Positions 38,159-45,720 of a stretch of 64,000 nucleotides of DNA are shown in pieces (position 1 is the first letter of the stretch; each line of letters begins with the position of its first letter). This stretch comes from Anaerolineales bacterium (GTDB taxonomy: Bacteria; Chloroflexota; Anaerolineae; Aggregatilineales; UBA2796). The stretch spans positions 1,798,001 to 1,862,000 of the forward strand of contig JABTTZ010000001.1 of assembly GCA_015075625.1 (NCBI GenBank). Reading direction: 5' to 3'. The notes under the pieces were generated by a model. It did no database searches. It saw only the letters and a list, made by a program, of their open reading frames with translations, and was not told where the DNA came from. The position numbers and the translations under genes are program-made.

Positions 38159-39760
38159 TCATTCTGTTAAGAGCGGCAGCCAGAACCCAAAGGTGCTGCC
38201 CTCACCCTCTTTACTCACAAACCAAACCTGCCCACCATGCCGTTCGACCATCTCTTTGACGAGGCTTAAGCCAACGCCCGTGCCGGGAATATGTTCCGTT
38301 CCCGACTGAAGGGCGCGGAAGTGCGGGGTAAAGATGAACGCTTTTTTGTCTTCGGGGATGCCATACCCCGTATCGACAACGTGGAAGGCAAAGCGTCGCC
38401 CCTCGCTAAACACTTTGACCGTGATTGTGCCGCCCGGTGGGGTGTACTTGATTGCATTTTCGAGGAGGTTGTTCATCACCTCTCGAAGGCGGTCAAAATC
38501 ACCCGAAATGGGGTTTAAGTTCGCTTGAATATCGCGGACGATTGTCTGATTCATGTGATCGGCTGTTGGCGCCATATCATCGAGAACGACTTCTACAAGG
38601 TGCAGGGGATCAATCAATTCGCGCCGCAAGGGAGAACTGCTCTCTGCCCGCTGAATATCGAGCAGATTTGCCACCAGCCCTTCCATCCGGCTGATCGCCT
38701 TCTCCATGTTCTCTAAAAATGCTCCATCGGGGATAACGCCCGCCTCGGCATCTTCTTTAATCACGGTCAGATAGCCCTTCACCACGCCGATGGGGTTTTT
38801 TAGATCGTGTGTCGCCAGTTCAATCATGTGATTTTTAAGGCGGTTTAGGTCTTTTAGCGAGGAAATATCGTGGAGGGCAATGACATACCCATCCTGTTTA
38901 GGATCGGTCAGGTTCAGCGGGGCAGCGTGAATGGCGAAATCGCGCTTGCTCAGTTCGTCACGGGCTTCAAAGGTGATGCTTTCGCCGCGCCGCGCCTCGG
39001 CTGAGAGTTTGGCATAGATGTTCTCGAAAATGGGTTTGCCTAACCCGCTGATCTCGAACAGGCGGCGGTCTTGAATCAAGTCTGAGGGAGCGCCGATGAA
39101 CGCCAGCGCCTCAGGGTTGACCATCTTCAAACGCCAGTCGCCATCAATGACCAGAAGTATATCGGAGATGCTGTTAAGAACTGCCTCCAACTGCCGCTGC
39201 TGTTGGGTCACTTTGTCAAAGAGTTGGGCGTTGCGGAGGACATTTGCTGCTTGGTTTGCTGCCGCTTGCACAAGCTGCAAGTCATCCTCGGTAAAATGGG
39301 CGGGGTTGGGGTGTTCTAGGGTCACCACCCCGCGCAGCTGCCCTGCCACAAAAAACGGAACACATATAGCTGAGCGAACACGTTTTAATTCGGCTTCACG
39401 ATCTAAAATTTGCCAGCGCGGATCGTTTGCTGTGTCATCGATACGAGCAGAGACACGATTAGCAATGACCCAACTAGCAAGCCCACTCTCCAAAATCTTT
39501 CCCGACACCGCCTCCATTTTTTCCGGGTCAATAGGGCGTGCCGGGATGAACCGCTGCAAGCGTCGTCCCGTTTCATCAATCAGAAAAAAACTGCCTTGCG
39601 CTGCGTTGACTGTCTCTGTCGTCAATTCAATGATTGTTTTTAAAACCTGATCCAAATCAAGCGTCGAAAGCAGACGAGCAATCTCAACCAACATTTTCAG
39701 TTGGCGCGTTTGGTCGGTGGGGTTGGGCTGCTGCCCGGATACACCAGATACATGTGCCAT
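38159..39760 (-). CDS. Cytoplasmic sensor histidine kinase (GAF-PAS-HisKA-HATPase)
   Basis: The domains in order are: a GAF domain (residues ~25-185, with FFLIDETGRRLQRFIPA and SAICVPFFVAGQLRGVVTLE); a PAS domain (~200-310, with DILLVIDGDWRLKMVNPEAL); HisKA with the phospho-acceptor His in MIELATHDLKNPIGVVKGYL; and HATPase with N box MNNLLENAIKYTPPGG, G1 VVDTGYGIPE and G2 GTGVGLSLVKEM. There is no membrane helix, so it senses a cytoplasmic signal. Start is the ATG at 39760; a GTG at 39778 is also possible. A hairpin (GATCATCG/CGATGATC) overlaps the stop. No response regulator is adjacent. The unlinked regulator at 29380 is one possible partner. Confidence 0.92.
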   Translation of the reverse strand: MAHVSGVSGQQPNPTDQTRQLKMLVEIARLLSTLDLDQVLKTIIELTTETVNAAQGSFFLIDETGRRLQRFIPARPIDPEKMEAVSGKILESGLASWVIANRVSARIDDTANDPRWQILDREAELKRVRSAICVPFFVAGQLRGVVTLEHPNPAHFTEDDLQLVQAAANQAANVLRNAQLFDKVTQQQRQLEAVLNSISDILLVIDGDWRLKMVNPEALAFIGAPSDLIQDRRLFEISGLGKPIFENIYAKLSAEARRGESITFEARDELSKRDFAIHAAPLNLTDPKQDGYVIALHDISSLKDLNRLKNHMIELATHDLKNPIGVVKGYLTVIKEDAEAGVIPDGAFLENMEKAISRMEGLVANLLDIQRAESSSPLRRELIDPLHLVEVVLDDMAPTADHMNQTIVRDIQANLNPISGDFDRLREVMNNLLENAIKYTPPGGTITVKVFSEGRRFAFHVVDTGYGIPEDKKAFIFTPHFRALQSGTEHIPGTGVGLSLVKEMVERHGGQVWFVSKEGEGSTFGFWLPLLTE

Positions 39761-39846
39761 GATCGTCTGCTGTCTCACTTACTCATCATGATAGATTCAC
39801 CACCATCGCATGAAAGGACGCTTGCCAAACCCTCCGCACGGCGGCA

Positions 39847-41898
39847 TTAGGGAAGGGTAATCACACAGCGCCGAAGTGTATCGTCTGCTGTCGTGCCAAC
39901 CTCACAGGTCGCTACCTGAATGTCCCCCTGATAGACGGCGAAGGTTTCTATGGAGCGGTTTTCCCTCAGCCAGAACCACCCGGGATCTGAGGTCAGCCGA
40001 AACCCAGAAAGCCGTTCACACTCATCAAAGGGCAGCCCACGTGGACGATCCAAGCGCCCTACCTGAAAACACACCTTGTCGGGCAGGGCTTCGGGGGGAA
40101 ACTCGGCAAAGCGCCCCCAAACGCTTGCCTCAAACCCTCGCATACCTTGCCGGAAGACGAGTTTGGAAATATCGAGTGTTCGCCCACTGGTGTTGATCAC
40201 GTTTAATTGAAGGTAGTTGTAGATCAGGAGCAGATCGCCTTGCGCCGCCGTATTCACCGAAGGCGTTGGTCCTAAGGTGACCGTAGCGCTGGCAGTGGGG
40301 CTGGCGGTGGGTGTGGGCGTCCGGCGTGGCGTGTTTGTGGCGGGCGGCGGGCGTGTCTGGGTAATCGTTTGGGTGGCGGTGGGCGATGCGCGGTTGGTGG
40401 GTACATTCGTCACTACTGTAACCAGTGCCGTATCCACCGTTGGGGCGCTCCCTGTGACGACCTCTGTTGCCTGATTCGTCGACTCTTGTGTCGGTTTGGT
40501 AGTGGCGGCTGCCGTCCCTGTCGCTTCGCCCGTTGCTTGGGTAGAAATTTCGGTTGCCACATCGGCGGTAGCAGAGGTCGGCGGCGTTTCCACGATCACA
40601 GCGATTGTCCCCTCGCCCGTCGGGTTGGGGGTTGATTCTGCTGTTCCTTCAGGCGTGGTGGGCGTTCCCGTTCCCCCAAGTCCGGCAACTGCCGTTGGGA
40701 TAGGGCTGTCTGTGCCGCCGCGATTGAGGAAGACAAACAACCCGCCAGCCAAAAGACCGACAAGGAGCAAAGCAGCAAGGATCAACGGACGGCGGCTTCG
40801 TTTGGCACCAGCACTGGCAACCGGTAGAGTCTCGCGGCGCAGAGAGGGCGCGTCTGTTTTTGCTGCCTTCACCTCACTGGTAGGGGCGTTGGACGAATAC
40901 CCTTCCATAGGGATGGGTGGGCGTGGCGCACTAGCGCCGGAGGTGGGCGCATTGCTCGCACTTGTTGGGGACAGAATCCCCAAACGGCGCATTTGCGACT
41001 CGCTTAGTTTCAAATCATTAAAGAGAACAGAGCGCCGTGATGGGCGACTATCGGTAATGTGATGCGCCATAGCGACGGCGAGGGCGTCTGCCATCTCCAC
41101 CCCATTGGCAAAGCGGCGGGCTGCGTCTTTTTCAATCGCCTTGAGGATCACCCCTTCCACCGCCGGAGGAATATCGGGGACATAGGTACGCAGGGGCGGC
41201 GGGGCGTCGTTCAGGTGTTTGAGCGCGACACTCATTGCCGAGGGGTCGTCAAAGGGAACTTTTCCAGTAAGCATCTCGTAGGTGCAAATGCCGAGCGAGT
41301 ACAGATCACTCTGGGGGACAGCTTTTGCTGAGGAAACCGCCTGTTCTGGGGCAATATAATGCGCCGTACCAAAGGTATCCCCAAGTGTCCCTTCCCATTG
41401 TGCCAACGCCAAACCAAAATCCGTTAGGACGGGACGGTTGTCGGCATCAAGCATGATATTCGAGGGCTTGATGTCGCGGTGGATTACCCCCCGACTGTGT
41501 GCGTAATCAAGGGCTGCTCCAATACCCTGAACGATATTGAGAATATCGCGGTAAGGCATTCGTGTTCCCCTATCGCTGTTCTCGCGCAGGATTTGACGCA
41601 GATCACGCCCTTCGATAAACGCCATTGCCATGTAGTAGAGCGTCTCGTAATCGCCAAATTGGTAGACGCCAACAATGTTAGGATGGTTTAGGCGGGCAAT
41701 GGCACGCGCCTCCCGCCGGAAGCGTTCGGCATATTCGCCTTTGTCGGCAACCATCAGATCGCTGTTGATCACCTTGACCGCAGCGTGACGTTGAAGGCGC
41801 TCATCAAAGCCAACGTACACCCGCGCCATACCGCCCTTGCCGAGCAGCCGCTGAATTTGATAATCGCCTAGTTTTTTTCCGAGAAGCAGGTCGGACAT
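39847..41898 (-). CDS. Membrane Ser/Thr protein kinase with Thr/Pro stalk
   Basis: The Hanks-type kinase domain spans residues ~12-275: GKGGMARVY (20-28), AVKV with Lys42, HRDIKPSN (140-147), DFG (160-162) and APEQ (183-186). A Ser/Pro linker leads to one membrane helix (PLILAALLLVGLLAGGLFVF), then a Thr-rich stalk of ~180 residues, then a C-terminal domain of ~130 residues with four Cys (VCFQVGRL, DECERLSG, ATCEVG, LRRCVI) that may form two disulfides outside the cell. The ATG at 41898 is preferred: a -10 box at 41933-41938 would give a leader of only ~7 bases for the upstream ATG at 41919. Confidence 0.92.
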   Translation of the reverse strand: MSDLLLGKKLGDYQIQRLLGKGGMARVYVGFDERLQRHAAVKVINSDLMVADKGEYAERFRREARAIARLNHPNIVGVYQFGDYETLYYMAMAFIEGRDLRQILRENSDRGTRMPYRDILNIVQGIGAALDYAHSRGVIHRDIKPSNIMLDADNRPVLTDFGLALAQWEGTLGDTFGTAHYIAPEQAVSSAKAVPQSDLYSLGICTYEMLTGKVPFDDPSAMSVALKHLNDAPPPLRTYVPDIPPAVEGVILKAIEKDAARRFANGVEMADALAVAMAHHITDSRPSRRSVLFNDLKLSESQMRRLGILSPTSASNAPTSGASAPRPPIPMEGYSSNAPTSEVKAAKTDAPSLRRETLPVASAGAKRSRRPLILAALLLVGLLAGGLFVFLNRGGTDSPIPTAVAGLGGTGTPTTPEGTAESTPNPTGEGTIAVIVETPPTSATADVATEISTQATGEATGTAAATTKPTQESTNQATEVVTGSAPTVDTALVTVVTNVPTNRASPTATQTITQTRPPPATNTPRRTPTPTASPTASATVTLGPTPSVNTAAQGDLLLIYNYLQLNVINTSGRTLDISKLVFRQGMRGFEASVWGRFAEFPPEALPDKVCFQVGRLDRPRGLPFDECERLSGFRLTSDPGWFWLRENRSIETFAVYQGDIQVATCEVGTTADDTLRRCVITLP

Positions 41899-41932
41899 GG
41901 ATGTTTCCGCTTTGCGCATGGATCAAGGTTTG

Positions 41933-43064: not shown

Positions 43065-43102
43065 AAAAAACAGCGAACGATCCCAATTGGGATCGTTCGC
43101 TG
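43065..43102 (-). terminator. Strong intrinsic terminator of the binding-protein/receptor operon
   Basis: On the minus strand a perfect 16-bp inverted repeat, CAGCGAACGATCCCAA and its complement, is followed by TTTTTTAG. It lies 26 bases past the receptor stop codon and is the strongest terminator in the window. Confidence 0.93.
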
Positions 43103-43128
43103 AAACAGGCTTGAGGCAATCTGGAAGA

Positions 43129-44469
43129 TTACTCTTTTTTTTCTGTTGTCTGTTCGCCTGTGGCGGGTGTGGCGGGTGTATCGGTAGCAAGGCTGCTGGT
43201 ACGGTTTTTCCGTGCCGCCCGGATGCTGGCGGCTTTGCTTTCCAAATCCTTGAAATATTCCGTATCGACAATTTCCTTGATGCTCGCCTGCTTCTTTTGC
43301 TCGTCAATCTCAATTTTGAGCGCCATGACCTGTTTCTTCAGGGTCGTCTCACGGATCACCACTTGCTGCCCCATTGTCTGGAACACGCGGGCAAACTGCC
43401 CGATTTCATCGGTGCGTTCAGCCGCCTCGTGAAGGCGCTTGGGGTCAAAGGATTCCGATTTTTCGGTGAGTTCCTGCGCCACTTGGGCAAGGTCTTGGAT
43501 TGGCTGCGTGATACGCCGCGCCGCAAGAATACCTTGTGTGGTGGCGATGAGAAGGGCGACGATCAAAAGGATACCGGTGATAATCGCCGTTTGGATCAAC
43601 AGATCAAGGGCGTTGGCGGAATTACGCTCGGCAATCACATTGAAAATCTGAACGCCACTAGGGATAGCAGGCTTGCCATTGCCTGTGTCTGGGTTTTCTC
43701 CCTCTGCTAAAGAGGCATCGCCAAAGCGAATTGTATTTGTGGCAAGAACCACGTTGAGGTTATCCAACCCTCGTGTAATGCCCGTTGCGCTAGGGATGGG
43801 AAACAGCGGACGGCGCAGCGCCACAGAAGGGTTGCGATGAGCAATCACGCGGTCTGTCGAATCGGTGATGTAGACGCTCTCTCCCGTGTTGAGCGAGATA
43901 TTCCCCAACAAGTCCCAAATCGGCTTGAAGCGAATCCGCCCGATCAAGACCTGATCCACAATGCCGCTGCGCACATTCGGAATCGGCACGCTGATAAGCA
44001 TCGATGGCTCGCCACTGAGGGGATCCGTTTCAACCGTCCCGTAGTAGGTTTGTTTGAGCGTTTTCGGGATGGTGAAAGCATCGTTATCCGCCCAATTTTT
44101 CAAATCGGAGGGGGCAACCACATCCAAGCGCGTCAGGCGGAGTTGTTCAACCCCTTCCCGATCTAGGAGGGCAATTTCCTCAAAGGTTTCGGGAAACGAA
44201 GGCAGCAGCGAGAGCATATCGCGCTGGCGAGATAAGGAATTGCCGGGGAGCGTGTTTGCCACCGTTTTCAACTCCCCTTCCATGCGCTTGATGAAGGCGG
44301 TTACTTCGGTAGACACACGCTGTGCAACGGTGGTCTCAAAAAATGTGGCTTGCTCAAGAAGAACATTGAAGCTGCGCAAGGTCAACACGACGCCGACCAA
44401 AAGGAGCGGCACAGCAGCCACAAGGATGAAAGCAAGCGTTAGACGGCGGCGGATACTGCTGGTTCGCAC
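43129..44469 (-). CDS. Transmembrane Cache-HAMP receptor without an output domain
   Basis: The plan is TM1 (LAFILVAAVPLLLVGVVLTL), an extracellular double-Cache-like domain of ~250 residues (IALLDREGVEQLRLTRLDVV; GESVYITDSTDRVIAHRNP), TM2 (TAIITGILLIVALLIATTQG), then a HAMP domain (ARRITQPIQDLAQVAQELTE; ERTDEIGQFARVFQTM). After HAMP comes a coiled coil of ~50 residues and a polar tail. There is no HisKA/HATPase, methyl-accepting or cyclase domain, so it must signal through a partner or only modulate one. It follows the periplasmic-type binding protein by 15 bases, and the pair ends in a strong terminator. Confidence 0.88.
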   Translation of the reverse strand: MRTSSIRRRLTLAFILVAAVPLLLVGVVLTLRSFNVLLEQATFFETTVAQRVSTEVTAFIKRMEGELKTVANTLPGNSLSRQRDMLSLLPSFPETFEEIALLDREGVEQLRLTRLDVVAPSDLKNWADNDAFTIPKTLKQTYYGTVETDPLSGEPSMLISVPIPNVRSGIVDQVLIGRIRFKPIWDLLGNISLNTGESVYITDSTDRVIAHRNPSVALRRPLFPIPSATGITRGLDNLNVVLATNTIRFGDASLAEGENPDTGNGKPAIPSGVQIFNVIAERNSANALDLLIQTAIITGILLIVALLIATTQGILAARRITQPIQDLAQVAQELTEKSESFDPKRLHEAAERTDEIGQFARVFQTMGQQVVIRETTLKKQVMALKIEIDEQKKQASIKEIVDTEYFKDLESKAASIRAARKNRTSSLATDTPATPATGEQTTEKKE

Positions 44470-44484
44470 GGGCGTTACCCTCCC

Positions 44485-45720
44485 TTAGAAACTCGCTGGT
44501 GTCGCCGTTGCAGGCGTTGTTGGCTCTGGTGTTGGCTCACTGGTGGGCAACTCCGTTGGAGGTATCTCCGTTGGGGGTGTGGTTGGCTCACCAGTGGGTA
44601 CCGTCGTCGGTGCGCTGATTGGTGCATTGGTCGGTTCGGCGGTGGCTTCGTTGGAGGGTGTTGGTGGGATAGGCGTTGCCGTTGGGGCTGGTGCGGTATA
44701 GATCACCCGATCTGCCTGGCGCAAAATGGCATCGGAAATAGGCAAGCCAATTTGGTTGGCAACCCATTGGTTAATCGTCAGGAAGAACTCCGCCGTTTCA
44801 ATGGGAAGGTCGCCCGGAGCAACGCCCTTCAAAACCTGATCGACCAAGCGTGCCGATTGTCGCCCAATCGCCGTAAAATCAAAACCATAGGCAAGCAGCC
44901 CTCCCGCCGGCACTTGGGGTCCGTTTGGCACAGAGAGCGGTAATTTTCGTTGGAGCGCCACTGCCGTGAAGTAATTCAACTGAGAGGCGACGACGTTATC
45001 TGCCAAAAGGACAAGCCCCAAGCCGGGAATATCGGTAGGAATTTCATCAATCGCCTGACGAACGGCAGCCGCATCAGGAGTCTCGCGTTCAATCACGCTG
45101 ACCCCAAACTTAGCGGCAATCTCTTTAACCACCTGCAAATTGATTACTGCTGCGGCATCATTGGGGTTAAAGGGGACATAAACGGTTTTGATCTCTGGGG
45201 CAAGGCGCAAGAACCATTCCATCCGTTTTGGCTCGTTCACACCATGCCGAATCCCCGTGAAGTTCCCCTCGCGGCGAACGATTTCTTCTTCGGTCACAAT
45301 CTTGGCAAAGATGGGGTCAAGGACGCTGGAAAAGACAAATTGGCGTTTTTTGTATTCGGATTTTTCAAAAAGTACTTTCGCGTCTTGGGCAACGGGTGTG
45401 CTGATAGCAAGGAGAAGATCAACGTTCTGGTCAAGGTAGGCTTGGATGGCGGGGGTCACTTTATCACGCACACCGCCCAAGTCACCTTCGTAAAGATAGC
45501 GGATGTTCACGCCTTCGCGCCAGCCGAGATCAGCCATGCCTTCTTTAAAGCCATTGACCACCGTATCGAGGACGGGCGCAAAGTTCACGATCCCAATCGT
45601 GATGATTTTTGAGGGTGTGGTGGAGCAAGCTGGCAAAACCATGAGCGCCATGAGCGCTATAACCAGCGTGAGAGCCAACGGACGGCGCGTGAAGCGTGGG
45701 TTACGAACAATCATGATCAT
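44485..45720 (-). CDS. ABC-type substrate-binding lipoprotein (TrpX-like family), orphan
   Basis: The protein belongs to the ABC_sub_bind family used by TrpX-type amino-acid importers. A lipoprotein signal (LALTLVIALMALMVLPAC, lipobox LPAC) leads into TIGIVNFAPVLDTVVNGFKE, then NVDLLLAISTPVAQDAKVLF, VYVPFNPNDAAAVINLQVVK and PAGGLLAYGFDFTAIGRQSA. The last ~65 residues are a Thr/Pro tail, unusual for this family. No permease or ATPase is adjacent; the next gene is a Cache-HAMP receptor. The likely job is ligand capture for signalling rather than uptake. The ATG at 45720 lies close to GGGG; the ATG at 45714 is also possible. Confidence 0.86.
   Translation of the reverse strand: MIMIVRNPRFTRRPLALTLVIALMALMVLPACSTTPSKIITIGIVNFAPVLDTVVNGFKEGMADLGWREGVNIRYLYEGDLGGVRDKVTPAIQAYLDQNVDLLLAISTPVAQDAKVLFEKSEYKKRQFVFSSVLDPIFAKIVTEEEIVRREGNFTGIRHGVNEPKRMEWFLRLAPEIKTVYVPFNPNDAAAVINLQVVKEIAAKFGVSVIERETPDAAAVRQAIDEIPTDIPGLGLVLLADNVVASQLNYFTAVALQRKLPLSVPNGPQVPAGGLLAYGFDFTAIGRQSARLVDQVLKGVAPGDLPIETAEFFLTINQWVANQIGLPISDAILRQADRVIYTAPAPTATPIPPTPSNEATAEPTNAPISAPTTVPTGEPTTPPTEIPPTELPTSEPTPEPTTPATATPASF

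Follow-up and report, generated by a model that had tools for sequence, protein, structure and literature searches.

The stretch of DNA analyzed here (the window) covers 64,000 nucleotides of an Anaerolineales bacterium of the phylum Chloroflexota (GenBank assembly GCA_015075625.1, contig JABTTZ010000001.1, positions 1,798,001 to 1,862,000) and encodes, on its reverse strand, a binding lipoprotein (44485..45720) followed by a membrane receptor (43129..44469) that ends in a conserved tail where most of its homologs have a histidine kinase. The same tail ends many other sensors, and it occurs together with, and often next to, an ATPase of one MinD/ParA-type subfamily with the Walker A motif HSFRGGTGKSN. 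We consider it rather probable that the pair is the input of a pathway in which the tail, having replaced a kinase, acts on this dedicated ATPase. The original prediction for this stretch, of a receptor that must recruit a separate output partner, is supported by our results; it had looked to a HAMP-interacting kinase for what seemed a bare HAMP domain, whereas the receptor has a specific conserved tail and the genomes point to the ATPase.

The gene pair

The receptor (446 aa, GTG start) is organized as transmembrane span (TM) 1, Cache, TM2, HAMP, and tail, residues 304 to 446 forming its cytoplasmic part. Its two membrane spans begin at residues 6 and 285, a dCache_1 match of 43 bits is slightly below the Pfam cut-off of 45, and the HAMP domain (residues 316 to 369; 43363..43524) scores 25.1 bits, slightly above the cut-off of 25; homologous receptors in relatives reach 52 to 85 bits for dCache_1 and 50 to 62 bits for HAMP. 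A Pfam scan found no catalytic domain past HAMP, HisKA and HATPase_c being absent. The predicted coiled coil with nothing after it was correct in this respect but overlooked that residues 373 to 423 (43201..43353), delimited by our tail profile A1, are a conserved module present on unrelated sensors. No relative of the receptor was found by sequence among solved structures.

The receptor gene follows the lipoprotein gene after exactly 15 nt, as predicted, and the perfect 16-bp terminator anticipated behind it was found as an intrinsic terminator 26 nt past the receptor stop codon, a perfect 32-nt palindrome (43071..43102) with TTTTTT next on the reverse strand. The lipoprotein (411 aa) matches PF04392 (ABC_sub_bind) with 137 bits (E 9.3e-40; cut-off 25.9), and its translation begins with a signal peptide and the lipobox LPAC (45625..45720; Cys32), whose cysteine is kept in an alignment of four orthologs. 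The Thr/Pro tail noted earlier is readable in the translation as a C-terminal extension (44488..44682) that differs in length among orthologs. The extreme ends of this extension (44488-44520 in the window), varied in length in the four orthologs, all have a final Phe (PASF, ARTF, ERTF, and ERTF). The solved chains nearest to the lipoprotein are 3lkv, 6hni, and 3lft.

The lipoprotein had been called TrpX-like, and this holds for the family, PF04392, but not for TrpX proper, as the NCBIfam model for TrpX (NF041285) gives 100 bits against an equivalog cut-off of 390. In line with the prediction, no permease or ATPase gene adjoins the lipoprotein gene among the genes of the window, and the arrangement of a TrpXYZ importer, which has a single permease, is not seen there. 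A specific permease and ATPase might instead lie elsewhere in the genome, as the prediction itself had pointed out. A genome-wide search returned the lipoprotein as the sole PF04392 match and ten PF02653 permeases; because all ten sit in five double-permease clusters, no single-permease, TrpYZ-type partner was seen among them. An importer encoded elsewhere, with the place beside the receptor being incidental, is in our view an improbable role for the lipoprotein: the five clusters would be the candidates, but all depart from the single-permease layout and the adjacency to the receptor is kept among relatives (see below). In a separate observation, a 99-aa precursor of a ribosomally synthesized and posttranslationally modified peptide (RiPP) with an NHLP leader peptide (L252:5614-5913, reverse strand; G and L numbers are our labels for genomes and loci) lies about 5 kb ahead of the first base of the window; it matches TIGR03793 with 85.6 bits (cut-off 50.9) and adjoins a double-permease ABC (ATP-binding cassette) cluster.

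A tail in place of a histidine kinase

Examination of 17 loci taken around lipoprotein homologs in relatives showed that the lipoprotein gene adjoins a homologous receptor gene in 14 of them, and in one further locus (L089) the two stand in one gene run with two receivers between them. Eight homologous receptors were scanned from these loci; six were Cache-HAMP-HisKA-HATPase proteins and two Cache-HAMP-GAF proteins, and the small genes beside the kinase-type receptors were read by eye as single-domain receivers. This conserved adjacency, the prevalence of histidine kinases among the homologous receptors, and the absence of a visible TrpYZ-type partner favor a sensing module over an importer, as originally proposed.

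A kinase-type paralog is also present elsewhere in the window's genome (L101), while tail-ended receptors, with about 50 conserved residues past HAMP, were found in this genome and in three others (G001, G007, and G010) that together represent two genera. The three other tail receptors are 44 to 59% identical to that of the window, and the neighborhood common to the four genomes consists of the lipoprotein and the receptor only. A tree, rooted at the midpoint, was built for 24 receptors from their sensor-HAMP region. It places the four tail-ended proteins in a single clade (100/100), with a kinase receptor of the same family (G004) as sister (97/90) and the one of G025, also a kinase, branching next; the tail profile matches these four and none of the 20 others. 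The tail took the place of a histidine kinase in this clade. Such a swap on a conserved sensor amounts to a natural experiment, with one input and two outputs.

Other explanations for the missing catalytic part fare poorly against these data. Decay of a histidine kinase into the present receptor would agree with its homologs being full kinases, but it is hardly credible given that the same ending is kept in receptors as diverged as those of the three other genomes, that 14 tail columns are invariant among six sensors, and that the tail is present on unrelated sensors. An output domain lost by frameshift, an outcome that would have undone the original prediction, is refuted because the three other genomes share the receptor ending. 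A sub-cut-off NCBIfam match suggesting a SiaA-like PP2C output was rejected, the relatives being kinases, as was a downstream partner-switching STAS/RsbW operon, since in the relatives the small genes that follow the receptor gene were read by eye as receivers. We also think it quite doubtful that the receptor recruits, through its HAMP domain or a coiled coil, a separate histidine kinase or a nearby Ser/Thr kinase. Two kinases are indeed encoded 1 to 5 kb away on the same strand, one of GAF-PAS-HisKA-HATPase type (38159-39778) and one a Ser/Thr kinase (39847-41919), but a PhoU gene on the opposite strand intervenes, relatives of either kinase were not found in the stretches surrounding the pair in G001, G007, and G010, and it is the ATPase with which the conserved tail co-occurs.

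Four loci of one family (L087, L088, L092, and L093) differ in that the receptor region past HAMP is GAF, or probably GAF judging from the tree and gene lengths, possibly representing a second output change on the same sensor; in L087, L088, and L093, genes for proteins of roughly 1090 and 710 aa lie downstream of the receptor.

The tail as a shared module

Profile A1 matches the tail of the window receptor with 96.4 bits (E 3.6e-27). The tail also terminates two other sensors of this genome, one of Tll0287-HAMP and one of GAF type, and a profile built from only these two sequences recovers the window receptor with 54.6 bits. The receptor tail is of mixed charge with a basic end, containing 13 Lys/Arg and 9 Asp/Glu. 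The conserved tail residues include an IEID stretch, an invariant Phe, and an Arg close to the end. Among 63 loci from named genomes, 28 were cyanobacterial, two were labeled Bacillota or Clostridiales, one was from Desulfobacteraceae, and one was from Patulibacter, the remainder being of Chloroflexota type; five plasmid records, from Nostoc, Pseudanabaena, Kovacikia, and Deinococcus, also carry the tail.

A domain census covered 58 tail proteins from these loci and from added cases in the window's genome and other Chloroflexota, with loci lacking a called tail gene excluded and near-copies removed by hand (L156, L168, L173, L175, L178, L179, L183, L186-L189, L191, L193, and L195); genes were called with a simple longest-open-reading-frame script, by which small genes may be wrong or missed. 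In all 58, the tail ends 0 to 72 residues (median, 10) from the C terminus. Pfam domains in these proteins were HAMP (41), dCache_1 (24), GAF (11), cNMP_binding (4), Response_reg (4), and Tll0287-like (3), with CHASE2, CHASE3, and CHASE4 found singly and HisKA in one protein. Since the tail is at the C-terminal ends of such varied sensors and HisKA is present in only one, it occupies the position of an output domain. A generic coiled coil was rejected as an explanation, as the tail occurs without HAMP, sits at protein ends, and is absent from 259 of the 301 genomes of a phylum sample (present in 42). A profile search found no true relative of the tail among solved structures, and in the open-access literature, subscription papers being outside the search, we found nothing on the tail or on the pairing of this ATPase with sensors.

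A MinD/ParA-type ATPase tracks the tail

Of 67 tail loci, 26 also encode an ATPase of this subfamily, frequently as the immediate neighbor of the tail; they come from Cyanobacteria, Chloroflexota, Bacillota, Desulfobacteraceae, and Deinococcus. In Nostoc and Patulibacter, tail and ATPase genes are likewise close to each other. In 26 of 27 neighboring copies, the Walker A motif has Arg where the signature Lys would stand, so that the candidate partner (RGGTGKS) lacks the signature lysine of ParA/MinD proteins. Five copies from four phyla are 50 to 62% identical to a sixth; the closest solved chain is the archaeal MinD 1hyq (71 bits), and no NCBIfam model matches at its cut-off.

Gene content and linkage lead to the same association. 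Among the nearest 121 genomes, the tail was found in 46, the ATPase (at E 1e-30) in 41, and both in 38, and the independent 301-genome sample of the phylum gave 42, 41, and 40, respectively, with the tail alone in two genomes and the ATPase alone in one (by genus, n = 179: both in 20, tail only in 2, ATPase only in 1). In the phylum sample, 45 of 84 tail genes have an ATPase gene no more than 10 kb away, compared with about 1% expected for a random gene by a rough estimate, and linked pairs occur in 33 of the 40 genomes that encode both tail and ATPase. Outside Chloroflexota, the ATPase was present in 31 of 31 tested genomes reached via the tail (of 32 loci, L183 being excluded; in L173 the ATPase was found only in two pieces), against a cyanobacterial baseline of 30 in 194 genomes. 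In the reverse direction, we took 28 stretches around ATPase genes from 26 of the 30 ATPase-positive cyanobacterial genomes, excluding two with tails already known (G446 and G450) and two with weak matches (G536 and G576); the tail was found in 18 of them, in 17 on the same strand as the ATPase.

The window's genome encodes the ATPase at G000:C1:24706-25452 (427 bits). It also has two diverged paralogs, at L250:7460-8230 (Walker A RRGAGKT), next to a 1252-aa protein with a CRP-like end, and at L251:7989-8744 (MRDNVGKT).

Several points weigh against a pathway from tail to ATPase. The ATPase of the window's genome lies 1.8 Mb from the pair and is unlinked to any of the three tail genes there, which is the main gap for this genome. 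Eight of the 46 tail genomes among the relatives have no ATPase match (G007, G009, G012, G035, G052, G073, G088, and G110), including G007, an assembly of 340 contigs and 93% completeness that carries the lipoprotein-receptor pair, and its congener G009; conversely, three of the 41 ATPase genomes lack the tail, as do 10 of the 28 cyanobacterial stretches. AlphaFold2 models of the receptor and lipoprotein were poor (predicted local distance difference test scores of 57 and 54), too weak for use. Co-occurrence and linkage fall short of proving contact, and the co-occurrence statistics (Fisher) ignore relatedness among genomes that are not independent; despite this relatedness, counting by genus and the data from a second phylum point in the same direction.

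Proposed mechanism and its main rival

We infer the physical contacts, the direction of signaling, the nature of the ligand, and what the ATPase controls from gene content, neighborhood, and conservation. The lipoprotein would bind a small extracellular ligand and act on the Cache domain of the adjoining receptor, as LuxP does on LuxQ, whose sensor region is Cache-like. The resulting change might then travel via TM2 and HAMP to the C-terminal tail of about 50 residues, and the tail would act on the ATPase, probably by binding its ATP dimer and altering the ATPase cycle. In this proposal the tail would work from the C terminus, and HAMP may set the strength of its action. If the tail does act on the ATPase, many sensors would acquire the recognizable output that they now lack, and a MinD/ParA-type P-loop ATPase would serve as a sensory hub rather than in the positioning of DNA, organelles, or the division site.

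The strongest rival holds that the ATPase merely places sensors in the cell: the tail would be a localization handle through which the ATPase positions or clusters them, and the signal would leave via another partner. It fits the same linkage and co-occurrence data and has a precedent in PpfA, which, according to the passages of PMC3964821 concerned with it, positions the cytoplasmic chemoreceptor cluster through the N terminus of TlpT. We nevertheless regard it as unlikely, because the tail replaces an enzymatic output, is also present on soluble GAF, receiver (REC), and cyclic nucleotide monophosphate (cNMP) sensors, and is accompanied by another recognizable output domain in almost no tail sensor.

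In a wider form, our reading of the tail as acting on the ATPase would describe a hitherto undescribed signaling system in at least five phyla, in which many membrane-bound and soluble sensors feed the dedicated HSFRGGTGKSN ATPase through one C-terminal tail and to which the window pair was added as one input by the kinase-to-tail swap. We give this wider form an even chance. A winged-helix-like protein would be a further component in many Chloroflexota, and class III cyclases, cNMP-binding proteins, Ser/Thr kinases, or NHLP-type exporters would be encoded nearby.

Genes around the ATPase and the tail

The small winged-helix-like protein, whose fold is our reading of its sequence, recurs beside the ATPase and has no Pfam or NCBIfam match. 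Its family profile (A6) is loose, and matches below 35 bits were not used in counts; in the phylum sample, 28 genomes score 35 bits or higher, and all but one of these (27) have the ATPase. In the window's genome, the ATPase gene is followed on the same strand by genes for a Ser/Thr kinase and the winged-helix-like protein in an apparent operon. One locus of genome G067 (L289) has, on one strand, the ATPase, a weak winged-helix-like match (14 bits), a tail gene, a clear family member (76 bits), and then a class III cyclase-like gene.

Other arrangements were also observed. A protein of the window's genome (L249:7799-9268, reverse strand) combines a winged-helix-like domain with one that binds cNMP (PF00027) and has a weakly P-loop-like end. 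In L191, L133, and other Nostoc-type loci, the gene for a tail sensor is followed in turn by those for an 864-aa protein, the ATPase, a protein with DUF7005, and a TIGR03896 protein ("bacteriocin-type transport-associated," double cNMP). In two loci from Bacillota and Clostridiales metagenome-assembled genomes (L175 and L176), NHLM-type export ABC transporters (TIGR03797), whose N terminus resembles the winged-helix-like family, are encoded next to the ATPase and a sensor of CHASE4-HAMP-tail organization.

Comparison with known systems

Binding proteins that act on sensor kinases include LuxP-LuxQ, TorT-TorS, and XylFII-LytS, as summarized in the relevant part of PMC6321045. The window pair likewise combines a binding protein with a membrane receptor, known here from gene adjacency, but where the receptors of those systems are sensor kinases, that of the window has a tail of about 50 residues instead. 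TlpT and PpfA resemble the tail system in that a signaling protein is encoded beside a ParA-like ATPase, with which it interacts (PMC3964821, in the same passages); that contact, however, involves the N terminus of a chemoreceptor and serves cluster positioning, while the present tail is a conserved C-terminal module on many sensor types. The peptides treated in PMC7993993 are, like the tail, short, charged, and modular, each paired with one cognate ATPase; they are N-terminal and, in the sections of that paper drawn on here, are not described as sensors, whereas the present tail is C-terminal, with about 50 residues, and has a proposed effect on an ATPase. With McdA and other MinD/ParA proteins, the present ATPase shares a deviant Walker A motif, and McdA likewise lacks the signature lysine, indicating, as far as the part of PMC6328274 on this motif goes, that a deviant Walker A can do without it; compared with McdA and the other MinD/ParA proteins, the ATPase that accompanies the tail forms a subfamily of its own.
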